From Erpobdella octoculata (lineage: Eukaryota; Annelida; Clitellata; Hirudinida; Erpobdellidae): a stretch of DNA of 64,000 bases. Positions 33,960-48,656 of the stretch are shown here, piece by piece (the stretch's first letter is position 1; every line of letters begins with the position of its first letter). Below the pieces are notes generated by a model, which made no database searches, had not been told where the DNA came from, and saw nothing but the letters and a program-made list of their open reading frames with translations. The stretch lies in contig OZ022246.1 in assembly GCA_963978895.1 (NCBI GenBank), forward strand, positions 12,977,742-13,041,741. Direction: 5' to 3'. The position numbers and the translations under genes were made by a program.

Positions 33960-34004
33960 TTGACCCTGAGGATGGCTGACATAGCTGAAACGGTCCGTCG
34001 GTCT
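33960..34004 (+). ncRNA. Type-I hammerhead ribozyme in PLE pseudo-LTR (copy A)
   Basis: Stem I GACC (33962-33965) pairs with GGTC (34000-34003). Core CTGAGGA 33966-33972. Stem II GGCT/AGCT (33974-33977 with 33983-33986). GAA 33987-33989. Stem III ACG-GTC-CGT 33990-33998. Cleavage site C33999, giving the canonical GUC triplet. All conserved hammerhead positions are present. Hammerheads are known from PLE pseudo-LTRs, where they are thought to process the tandem transcript. Confidence 0.85.
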
Positions 34005-34172
34005 GACAATAAAAGTTTAATGGAAAAGTTTTTGGCTAATTGTAGTCTCGAACAGAGAGTTTTGTGCCGAAAGGTCGAGAATTTGGCTCGAAAAGTTGTT
34101 TCTGCCAAATGGCGAGTTGTGTTTCTTAGAGCGTGTCTCAAAGATAAATTGATTCCACAGTTTATTCGCAAT
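33970..34172 (+). pseudogene. PLE protein N-terminal segment within pseudo-LTR
   Basis: Frame reads MADIAETVRRSD from 33973, then LARKVVSAKWRVVFLRACLKDKLIPQFIRN, then enters (TA)n. The 'AKW.VVF..ACLK..LIP.F...' block is the helical N-terminal region of PLE proteins. It overlaps the hammerhead. Confidence 0.75.
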
Positions 34173-34234
34173 ATATATATATATATATATATATATATAT
34201 ATATATATATATATATATATATATATATATATAT
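34171..34234. repeat. (TA)n array
   Basis: TA array starting directly after the PLE fragment's IRN codons. Confidence 0.96.
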
Positions 34235-34439
34235 AAATTTTCGGATCGATTGGCCAAATTTTAATTAAATAATTATTAGTGATATTTTCGTCGAACTATT
34301 TATTGTCTATGCTAATATACTCGTTGTTTATGTAGCAAAAATATAAATGGGTGTTTTTAAAAAACTTTGTTTTTGCTTCACTTGTTTAGTGTGTCTTGTT
34401 TTATAATTGTAAATATTAATTTTATTTTTTTTTCATTTT

Positions 34440-34640
34440 TTATTGCTTAAGTTTTTTTTTAATCTAAAAACGGATTAATGTATTTAATGTCACTCATCGA
34501 AGTACTAACCGGGCTCGACGTTGCTTAACTTCGTTGATCGTACGAGACGCGATGGTTTTAAAAATAACGTTTGCGCTGAAACAAATAAACAAACATCAAA
34601 CAACTAACAACATTGCAAGTTAATATAAGCGTTGTAATAA
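34440..34640 (-). repeat. 5S rRNA-related SINE, copy 1
   Basis: On the minus strand 34557-34488 reads CGCGTCTCGTACGATCAACG, then GAAGTTAAGCAACGTCGAGC, then CCGGTTAGTACTTCGATGAG. This is the central two thirds of eukaryotic 5S rRNA including the internal control region (boxes A and C). The first ~30 nt and the 3' helix are missing. Flanks on both sides are shared with copy 2 at 50100-50280, so the unit is a dispersed repeat, not a stray 5S gene. Confidence 0.75.
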
Positions 34641-35075
34641 ATAGGGAATAAGATGGATGAACATTGTTCATACGGATGTAGGGATGGAAAGATGTACAAT
34701 AGTGGGCATACTGATGTAGGGGTGAAAGGATAAATGGAGGTGTTAATAAAATGATGGAAGACAAGCGAGTGATAATTCCAAAAAAATAAAAATGGAAAGA
34801 TGAATGGATGTGTTGATAGAATGATAGAAGGTTAAGGAAATATTTTAAGGAACAGAAAATTGAATGAATATGAACATATAGTCGCATTTACGTACATGGT
34901 GTGAAAGAATAAATAAAACAAGTAAATTAAAAACGAATTTTTAAAACCAATGCTCTTATATGTAATTAAAACACAAATTTTGCAATCAATTTTTTCTTAT
35001 ATTACTCTTTTATTTTATGTTAAAGTCGAAATATCTTAATTATATCGAAATATCGAAATTAATTAAAATTATCTA
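34641..35075. other. AT-rich stretch with GATGGA-type degenerate repeats
   Basis: Loose GATGGA/GATGAATG words occur through 34650-34830. No gene. Confidence 0.45.
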
Positions 35076-35395
35076 AATTAATTGACTTATTGTAAAACTA
35101 ATAATTGAATATTGCATTGTCTTCTATTTTAAGCATGTATGCAAAATTTGAAAAAATCTATGGTTCGTGTTAACTTGGTAAAATAGTCTGCCAGTCGGTT
35201 AGCGTTTTGTGGTCAAGAAAACCCTCAAGAAAACCCTCAAGAAAACCCTCAAGAAAACCCTCAAGAAAACCCTCAAGAAACCCCTCGATAAAATCCTCAA
35301 GAAAATTAACTAAATTAATTGACTTATTGTAAAACTAATAATTGAATATTGCATTGTCTTCTATCTTGAGCATGTATGCAAAATTTGAAAAAAAT
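35076..35395. repeat. ~86-bp direct duplication around a 12-bp minisatellite
   Basis: ATTGACTTATTGTAAAACTA and the following sequence to AAAATCTAT occurs at 35076-35161 and 35310-35395 with about 97% identity. Between the copies lies AAGAAAACCCTC repeated about 6 times (35216-35290). Confidence 0.85.
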
Positions 35396-35440
35396 CTATC
35401 ATCAGGAAGTGACTCAAATATTGATTGCAAGATTTGAAAC

Positions 35441-45542: not shown

Positions 45543-45610
45543 TGATTAATCATTCATTAATCAATCAATTAAATTTGTATAGCGCTATTTTCTATCGTTC
45601 AATAGCGCTC
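45543..45610 (-). repeat. 3' tail of a CR1/L2-type LINE or its SINE
   Basis: The minus strand reads GAGCGCTATTGAACG, then AATAGCGCTATACAAATTTAATTGATTGATT. A 'GCGCTATACAAATN-AATTG' end with short tandem ATTGATTG is typical of L2-like LINE and SINE tails. Confidence 0.6.
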
Positions 45611-45819
45611 GGACACGAACTTATTAAATAAATAAATTTTAAGTGGTGGTTGTAGTAACTCAATGGCTTTGTTCCAAGTTGTATTCTGGTAGCTATATTA
45701 GCTAGGCTAACAGAAGGGGTGGTGACACTTGCGTTCCTTCGTTAGCAATAGCTTAGTCGACGATGGAGTTGTAAAATAGTGATAGGGCAAAAAAGGCAGT
45801 AATTTCAGTTATTGCCCGT

Positions 45820-46242
45820 CACGTCACGTCACGTTACGTTACGATACGTTACGTTACGTTACGTTACGTTACGTTGCGTTGCGTTACGTTACGTTGCGTT
45901 GCGTTGCGTTGCGTTGCGTTGCGTTGCGTTACGTTACGTTACGTTACGTTTCGTTACGTTACGTTACGTTGCGTTGCGTTGCGTTGCGTTGCGTTGCGTT
46001 GCGTTGCGATACGTTACGTTACGTTACGTTACGTTACGTTACGTTACGTTACGTTACGTTACGTTACGTTACGTCACGTTACGTTACGTTACGTTACGTT
46101 ACGTCACGTTACGTTACGTTACGTTACGTTACGTCACGTTACGTTACGTTACGTTACGCTACGTCACGTTACGTTACGTTACGTTATATTACGTTACGTT
46201 ACATTACATTACATTACTTTGCGTTACGTTACGTTACGTTAC
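45820..46242. repeat. (ACGTT)n pentanucleotide array, ~420 bp
   Basis: ACGTT units with runs of GCGTT variants (45876-45930, 45970-46008) and periodic ACGTC variants spaced about 30 or 25 bp at 46070-46175, which hints at a higher-order unit. Each unit contains an ACGT and CpG. Arg/Tyr/Val frames are artefacts. Confidence 0.97.
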
Positions 46243-47695
46243 ATACATAATTCCCATACGACAACGGCTGCACGTTGACGACGACATATTTAATTATTAT
46301 TGATTCAATGGAATAATAATTAATATTATAATTCTATTTAATAATTATTACACAACACCCACGTGCATTAATCTTCTCGACACGAACAAAAATCTTATTT
46401 TCTTTTTGTAAAACGTTTTTTTGTTATATTTAAACTAAAAAAATCTCAAGAAAAGTAGCATAAAAACGCCAAAATGGCAAAAATTTAGTGAAAACGAAGA
46501 GAAAATTGACAAAATGGGAACAAGAAGATATTGTGTAGGTGGAAAAAAAGAAAAAATAGAAAAAAAGAGAAAAAATGTAGAAGTAAGAAAATAAACGACA
46601 ACATTGGAGCAATAAAACCTGCTCCCCATCAGCACAAGAGCACAACACACAACGATTTAGGTATCATCAAGTTGATACGAAAACATGTGTTTAGATATGT
46701 TAATTTGTCTGCGTACGTGTTCCAAAGTGTTTAAGCTTGTTTATGTGCGTGATAAGAGCACATACGAGCACATCACGTTAACCCTGAAGGTGTTCTGTGG
46801 CTTTTATATTTCACACTTTGTCTTTGTAGAGTGTTAGATTATCGCGAAACGATGAACTTAAGTTACTGGTGTAATTTGCAGTGGCGGTAATGGTTATGAT
46901 GATGATGAGGATAATAGTTATAATATTGGTTTCTTTTTAATAATAATATTATTATAGCAATCATAACATAAATAATATTATTAATTTAAAAAAATCATCG
47001 AATCATGTGTCGATCCATTATTTCATTTGCGTAAGTTATCAAGTTATTAGCAACAATAAAATTTATTCAATAGTCTCATTTTTATGAAATAAACTTGTTT
47101 GAGTTATTTTTAAAAAATATCAATTTAAAAAAAAACAAATAACAATCAGTCAAAAATAAACTTCTCCATGGACTATTTTTAATGATTTAAAAACAACTCA
47201 AATAATTAGGTGCTTCAAAAATACATACATTTCAATTTTAAAACAGCTAGTGTAAAAGACTAAAAACTATTATAAAAAAACAATATTTTATCGTAATACC
47301 ACACAGCATAAAAATCATTTAAAGAGGCGACAACAAAAACGCCCGCGGCAACAAACGACAAGAAAGCGAAACTGCAAATAATTTTCTTCTACTCGCGAGT
47401 AGCAGGCGTTGCTGTAAATAATTTTCGATTATTGCGTTTTTACCGAGTTATTTTTTTTGTTCTTGATGCTCTGTACTTGAAAGGGGAAAGCAGCGAACGT
47501 TAAAAAGTCCGTAAATGCCAATATGGTATTTGGAAAATTGGAGGCATCGGTGTGTTTATAGAGGAATTGTTTTGACAATTTTTGGGACTGAAGTGAAAAA
47601 GTTGTTCAATATCCACACAAATGGAGTCGTTTAATGTCGTAAAGCGGTGTGAAGATGTCTAGTTAATACTGCCGTGTGCAGATGTGCTTGTGCGT
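46243..47695. other. AT-rich stretch, nothing assignable
   Basis: Contains a 14-bp palindrome CTACTCGCGAGTAG (about 47390-47403) with AAATAATTTTC repeated on each side. No gene. Confidence 0.5.
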
Positions 47696-47699
47696 ATAT

Positions 47700-48300
47700 A
47701 CAGCGGCGGATCCAGGAATTTTGTAAAGGAGGGCCAAATTTTTTTTATTTTTTTTATTTTAATTACTGTCGTTATGAAGCTCATTGTAAGATATCTTAAT
47801 TTTTTTATTTAGTAAAACTAAAAAAAAGAATTGAAATTAAATTTTTTATTTACTCCCATTTTCCCTCTGTTTTCCTCTCATTTTTTCTGTATTTATTTTC
47901 TCTGGAGATACATCAACACAAGACACCACTTTTTTCTATCAAGCTAAAATTAAGTGAACCATAAAAACTTTTGTAATTCGGCGGCTACAAATTGTTTGCA
48001 AATTTTTTTGATGATAATAAGTCTATAAAATAGAAAAACATTGACCACAGCCTTCTAAATATTTAATGTGTGAACTAAGTGAGGATTGAAAATATAATAA
48101 ACTTTCGAATCAATATGTTAAGAATAAAGTTTTTAATATAAATTTTTACTTTAAAAATCAAATATCGCTTTTTTAAAATAAACTAAAAAATGAGGGTTGA
48201 TTTCTCTACAGAAAAGTTTCAATTTTTAAAAATTAAAAATTAAAGTTTTATTGATTTTATTCTATAGCTCAATTAAATGTTGTCCATTCCATTTGATAAA
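47700..48300. repeat. Dispersed repeats: possible transposon end, plus copy 2 of the 8185 repeat
   Basis: CAGCGGCGGATCCAGGAATTTT (47701-47722) resembles the start of a widespread DNA-transposon/MITE terminal repeat, but no partner end was found. 47969-48125 matches 8185-8345, and 48121-48300 resembles 38690-38830. Confidence 0.45.
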
Positions 48301-48612
48301 CTAATAAAATTCAAAAGTCCGTTCGTACATTTGAACATATTCCTGATTGTCAGATCATAACAGCAGATTATTGAATAAAACAAGTAATATTTGTAATTTT
48401 ACATTGTCTTCTTCTATAAGCAAATTATGACCACACCAATAATCTTGTATATACTATTTTATATTTTAAATTATTTAAACTTTATTAATACGTAATTTTA
48501 TCTCAGTTCCTCTTACGATATTCTAATATCAAAGGTAGGTACGTTCAACCTGGTTTTATTGTTTATTTTATTTTATCGTTTCTTGCGTTGACGTTTGGTT
48601 TAAATTTTAAAT

Positions 48613-48656
48613 GGGCTCTGAGGATGACAAGTTTAGTCGAAACGGTCCGTTAGCCC
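48613..48656 (+). ncRNA. Type-I hammerhead ribozyme in PLE pseudo-LTR (copy C)
   Basis: Stem I GGGCT (48613-48617) pairs perfectly with AGCCC (48652-48656). Core CTGAGGA 48618-48624. Stem II GAC/GTC (48626-48628, 48636-48638) with a 7-nt loop. GAA 48639-48641. Stem III ACG-GTC-CGT 48642-48650. U48651 is the cleavage nucleotide. Every conserved position is kept. Confidence 0.85.

Follow-up and report, generated by a model that had tools for sequence, protein, structure and literature searches.

The 64,000-nucleotide stretch of the annelid Erpobdella octoculata analysed here (contig OZ022246.1; hereafter the window) contains three type I hammerhead motifs, A, B and C, located at termini of Penelope-like elements (PLEs). 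The presence of the three motifs is confirmed. According to the modelling described below they are real, selected RNA structures of a known kind with predicted ribozyme activity. The copies very probably represent the 3′ termini of endonuclease-bearing PLEs, in which a minimal, putatively self-cleaving type I hammerhead is placed around the AUG start codon. This overlap of ribozyme and start codon is the most interesting feature of the elements.

Results

Three type I hammerhead motifs and a decayed fourth copy

The window was searched with a descriptor comprising CTGANGA, an optional one-base spacer, stem II of at least 3 bp, GAA, stem III of at least 3 bp, a cleavage base other than G and stem I of at least 3 bp. 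On the forward strand only A, B and C are found, and there are no sites on the reverse strand (Table 1). The same descriptor gives no match in 60 first-order Markov windows. A slightly looser version yields 8, 9 and 19 matches per 600 Markov windows of order 1, 2 and 3, i.e. 0.013-0.032 per window compared to three in the real sequence, and on this basis a chance origin of the three motifs is rejected. A, B and C all show the CUGANGA and GAA core, the non-G cleavage base, the three stems and the open stem I that characterize type I.

An earlier note on this DNA had described three structurally intact hammerheads at the termini of diverged PLEs. Its coordinates, stems and cleavage bases are correct to within two bases, and the location at PLE termini is supported by the PLE coding tails found downstream. 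The list of stems is broadly right, except that stem I of B reaches 9 bp, stem II of A opens with a G-U pair, and stem III is identical in A and C, so that B alone differs. The term intact applies to the completeness of the motifs but not to activity of the single molecule, as stem III shows near-zero pairing in monomers (see Discussion). Missed by the note were an extra T between A9 and stem II, the position of the motif across the start of the open reading frame (ORF), and a fourth copy, D.

D was identified with a covariance model built from A, B and C (R1) and run over the window with filters off. Beyond its training sites the model scores D with 24.7 bits (E = 1.5e-4), and the next-best site reaches 12.2 bits (E = 0.61). 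Since D had been left out of model building and lies upstream of a fourth PLE tail, it provides an independent check.

The motifs are located where one PLE unit runs into the next

Based on tblastn within the window, PLE N-terminal tails lie directly downstream of all four motifs. Pairwise tail identities range from 37/67 to 49/67 (55-73%) among A-D, with 58-67% for the pairs A-B, A-C and B-C. The protein stretch K-W-x-x-x-F ... C-L-K-E recurs after C and D, in an inverted copy beside A and briefly in a tail fragment, E, and it is similar to N-terminal regions of long proteins that combine reverse transcriptase (RT) and GIY-YIG domains. In a set of 44 such long PLE proteins (at least 780 aa, taken from 152 proteins, several of the 44 starting further in) an ad hoc motif for this stretch is found in 21 in its loose and in 11 in its strict form.

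Upstream of hammerhead A the end of a 5′-truncated PLE ORF of 305 aa is preserved, which is 99% identical to the public protein P0001 over 82% of its length. It retains the aligned GIY-YIG residues in an alignment with P0038 and P0079, both of which have a Pfam GIY-YIG match. Pfam gives no match for the fragment of the window itself, and its placement is via these homologues. The RT core of A has been removed by the 5′ truncation; the homologues have both RT and GIY-YIG. Near-identical public relatives are P0001, P0153 and P0154, all unnamed proteins, and by sequence no relative of the PLE alignment with a solved structure was found. Because the GIY-YIG ORF end lies just upstream and a PLE N-terminal frame downstream, the motif of A marks the junction at which the pseudo-long terminal repeat (pseudo-LTR) of the PLE passes into the beginning of the following unit, a place that B, C and D represent in shorter form. 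By eye, an RT-thumb-like piece is seen directly before the N-terminal tail in fragment E (37906-38020, reverse strand), in a different reading frame, as though an intervening segment were missing.

The start codon is built into the ribozyme core

In the canonical hammerhead A9 runs directly into stem II. All four copies depart from this core by an extra T (U in the RNA), giving CTGANG-ATG (CUGANG-AUG), and A9, this U and the opening base of stem II together make up the AUG. It begins a PLE reading frame in A and B, where the core GAAAC encodes E-T of the protein. The two frames share 38% identity, and all four N-terminal public relatives start with M-A-(D/N)-(I/K)-(A/V)-E-T.

Pairing is maintained beyond the demands of coding

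To separate pairing from coding, the first 12-14 codons were randomised synonymously with 200,000 recodings per setting. The hammerhead survives in 0.16-0.24% of the recodings of A, 0.34-1.4% of those of B and 0.22-0.38% of those of C. The pairing is thus not explained by coding, because recoding so rarely retains it.

The three intact copies also show modest covariation. In A-C 93.9% of 33 cells are paired, and 4 of the 11 modelled pairs have changed on both sides, each value being equalled in 9 of 500 shuffles. In our reading, a fifth change of this kind, at the third pair of stem III, is masked by an alignment gap. When the partners are slid by 1-3 columns, 14.8-40.0% are paired. The number of further pair types points in the opposite direction (6, compared to 6.7 in shuffles, with 500/500 shuffles as high). 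As evidence, the recoding control and the held-out copy D weigh more than the covariation.

The 3′ ends lie beyond the predicted cleavage site and adjoin AT-rich targets

Six PLE 3′ ends in the window adjoin AT runs. Five of them are at most 2 bp away from an (AT)n array of at least 18 bp, and that of B lies 18 bp off, bridged by an interrupted AT run; for random positions, a distance of at most 12 bp from an (AT)n array is seen in 1.5%. The ends form two classes. The shorter class, near coding nucleotide 175, comprises the inverted copy, D (by alignment) and public P0155, and the longer one, at coding nucleotides 199-204, comprises A and B and, by sequence, also C, E, P0153, P0154 and P0156. 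With the cut predicted after coding nucleotide 28-29, the ends extend beyond it, which indicates that the downstream hammerhead had not cleaved the RNA from which these copies were made. No copy starting at the cut site was seen, the 5′ ends of C, D and E being undetermined. A pseudo-LTR reaching into the ORF start, an optional tail, an inverted copy at the 5′ end and insertion into AT-rich DNA, i.e. the features expected of PLEs, are all observed. The window holds 20 merged (AT)n arrays, corresponding to 3.1% of its length, and several other microsatellites and tandem arrays.

Table 1. Hammerhead motifs and PLE features in the window (positions numbered from its first nucleotide)
Feature	Position	Strand	Description
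Hammerhead A	33962-34003	+	4, 4 (one G-U) and 3 bp in stems I, II and III; cleavage predicted after C33999
Hammerhead B	42044-42096	+	9 (two G-U), 4 and 3 bp in stems I, II and III, the last with a palindromic loop; cleavage predicted after C42087
Hammerhead C	48613-48656	+	5, 3 and 3 bp in stems I, II and III; cleavage predicted after U48651
Decayed hammerhead D	26596-26638	+	Core and stem II kept; stem III lost; mismatch in stem I; match of model R1
PLE ORF start in A	33972-34169	+	66 codons, M-A-D-I-A-E-T..., ends at AT run; relatives P0154-P0156
PLE ORF start in B	42059-42259	+	67 codons, M-A-N-K-A-E-T..., ends at interrupted AT run; relative P0153
Leader/pseudo-LTR part of A, upstream ORF stop to ATG	33829-33971	+	No ATG in 143 nt
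Broken N-terminal coding tail of C	48657-48785	+	Ends at AT run; tblastn 48686-48784
N-terminal coding tail of D	26739-26879	+	Shorter 3′ end, at AT run
5′-truncated PLE ORF end upstream of hammerhead A	32911-33828	+	Post-RT-core region and GIY-YIG endonuclease, 305 aa
Inverted exact 76-bp copy of A tail (34071-34146)	32833-32908	-	Abuts AT run
PLE tail fragment E	37906-37962	-	Abuts AT run; tblastn within window E = 6e-4

Other features of the window

Direct repeats of 203 bp (35746-35948 and 37546-37748, 99% identical) flank an ORF of 525 aa with a SAP domain (35966-37543). Their ends look like TG...CA by eye, and the unit, which lies within AT runs, may be a small LTR retrotransposon without an RT of its own. 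ORFs matching RVT_1 but unlike the PLE ORF are located at 19113-20330 (forward), 27175-27846 (reverse; just under the Pfam cut-off) and 40445-41500 (reverse), and are probably remnants of long interspersed nuclear elements. A long gag-like ORF at 62033-64000 (forward) is open at the window end and has a weak retropepsin match (E = 0.032, below cut-off). Repeats with CCCGGCGTTGCCCGG followed by a coding-like stretch are found at 15758-15835, 30554-30631 and 57936-58013 on the forward strand, the first two beside AT runs. Finally, 52191-52490 and 52975-53274 form a duplication with 784-bp spacing that is 97% identical across 300 bp.

Discussion

In the arrangement that we consider very probable, each terminus would be the start of the next tandem unit, consisting of the pseudo-LTR, a minimal type I hammerhead and ~175-200 nt from the beginning of the ORF. 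RNA of tandem units could cleave itself at codon 10, either as a dimer in which two copies jointly form stem III or assisted by the PLE protein. The start codon would thereby be parted from the ORF, and the copies seen here would derive from RNA that escaped cutting at the downstream hammerhead.

Minimal type I PLE hammerheads are a described class, and the earlier note had already said so of hammerheads in PLEs. Cleavage of PLE hammerheads as dimers has been reported (PMC7761336, PMC6155905, PMC6466107). As far as the citing reviews describe them, the minimal dimer-cleaving ribozymes (Cervera and De la Pena 2014; Lunse, Weinberg and Breaker 2017) share with the present copies a short, dimer-capable stem III, the lack of evident loop-loop contacts and the location in PLE pseudo-LTRs. 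The overlap with the start codon has already been published for one lizard element, Poseidon of Anolis carolinensis (PAc), for which a protein-assisted hammerhead is described (PMC11167929). Compared by description, PAc likewise has a PLE pseudo-LTR, 3′ ends that fall within the beginning of the ORF and have an optional tail, and AT-rich targets. In contrast to PAc, a 3-bp self-complementary stem III can be drawn in the present copies, and the 3′ ends are near coding nucleotides 175 and 199-204 rather than 111-118. The Penelope element of Adineta vaga, as described in PMC3846280, also shows a pseudo-LTR running into the ORF start, an optional tail of ~31 bp and an inverted copy at the 5′ end; the ORF part of its repeat comprises 12-22 codons, compared to ~58-67 here, and the word hammerhead is absent from the main text of that paper. 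The two classes of 3′ ends resemble the optional tail described for Penelope elements (PMC3846280, PMC11167929).

Several results weigh against the proposed arrangement. Rfam 15 returns nothing at the gathering threshold over the whole window and no hammerhead up to E = 10. With 101-base stretches B matches Hammerhead_HH9 (RF02275), whose core and stem layout align with it, at 15.4 bits and thus far below the threshold of 52, and the stretches around A and C do not match this family. The earlier note had named the lack of a covariance-model hit above threshold as a refutation, which, taken literally, is the outcome with Rfam; R1 separates the sites cleanly, though it was trained on them. The note had further taken the covarying stems as direct evidence for selection. 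Pairing is indeed kept through change, but the covariation, derived from only three intact sequences, appears modest, and one measure is contrary. Relatives at the DNA level were not found in viral_contigs and genome_contigs, from which records of the own genome may be left out, so the covariation is drawn from this window alone. With respect to the start codon, B has an in-frame ATG 3 bases before the core ATG and three others upstream, and C has another ATG at 48611. The core-AUG frame of C ends after nine codons at a TAG inside GTTAGCCC, which is common to D, and the core ATG of the C/D lineage may for this reason head only a short upstream frame of nine codons. A start of the form M-x4-E-T is present in none of the 44 long PLE proteins, the nearest being P0043 with M-Y-V-E-T.

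The predicted folds of single molecules are also unfavourable. In monomers, calculated with three flank lengths each, the mean pair probability of stem III is 0.000 for A, 0.000-0.001 for C and 0.012-0.077 for B, and in the minimal sequences of A and C the core GGAU pairs with GUCC instead. Even a functional element could therefore give a negative result in a 50-nt single-motif cleavage test. Each stem III segment is complementary to itself; in A and C (ACGGTCCGT) there is a mismatch at the centre, and in B (ACCTGCAGGT) the match is perfect. In two-strand folds, the double hammerhead is the exact optimum for B (-41.5 kcal/mol) and lies 2.4 kcal/mol above the optimum for C. For A a different optimum is 8.6 kcal/mol better than the double hammerhead, which is evidence against a simple dimer rule. 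On these predictions, the self-complementary stem III favours pairing between copies clearly in B, nearly in C and not in A.

If the hammerhead is active around the start codon, it might act as a switch, an idea that we regard as tentative and on balance unlikely. The uncut RNA would serve as messenger, and a cut at codon 10 would remove the AUG, stop translation and commit the RNA elsewhere. Binding of the PLE protein to the first ~170 nt, or pairing of two units via the palindromic stem III, could provide the trigger. The trace of such a switch would then be the retention of the core AUG across diverged families whose stems have changed.

The motif could also be a relic of a ribozyme that was active in an ancestral PLE, is readable only since the copies are recent and has no present role. 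In PAc, RNA with a dead ribozyme is inserted no less well than wild-type RNA, and the study reports no RNA ends at the cut site (PMC11167929). The 3′ ends in the window likewise come from uncut RNA, and D has decayed. However, the motif is complete in each of three families whose tails share 58-67% identity and whose stems have changed, and most synonymous recodings would destroy it, so that we consider a relic improbable. Far less credible is that the bases are conserved because they encode the protein start (M-A-x-x-x-E-T-x-R), or because this start is inherited from a common ancestor, and that the hammerhead is incidental. While much of the motif codes in A and B, with GAAAC as E-T, recoding keeps the hammerhead in only 0.16-1.4% of cases, the 5′ strand of stem I and most of the core are located upstream of the ATG and yet pair, and in C the motif is complete although the frame is closed after nine codons; we therefore reject this explanation. 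An origin from metazoan non-LTR retrozymes, i.e. small hammerhead-bearing tandem repeats without coding sequence, which share the ribozyme type and coexist in genomes with PLEs that may mobilise them (PMC7229834), is rejected as extremely improbable, since the motifs are single, 6.5-8 kb apart and have no second hammerhead within 400 bp, and since each is followed by PLE coding sequence instead of belonging to non-coding repeats of ~150-400 bp.

PLE hammerheads are widespread, and their role in vivo was called a mystery in a 2020 review (PMC7761336). The findings include a warning, namely that a cleavage assay with a single motif may be the wrong test for this class. The 3′ ends imply that the RNA from which these copies were made had stayed uncut at the downstream hammerhead. 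To the known elements the copies add diverged families in which the ribozyme core, the AUG and the N-terminal protein sequence occupy the same bases.

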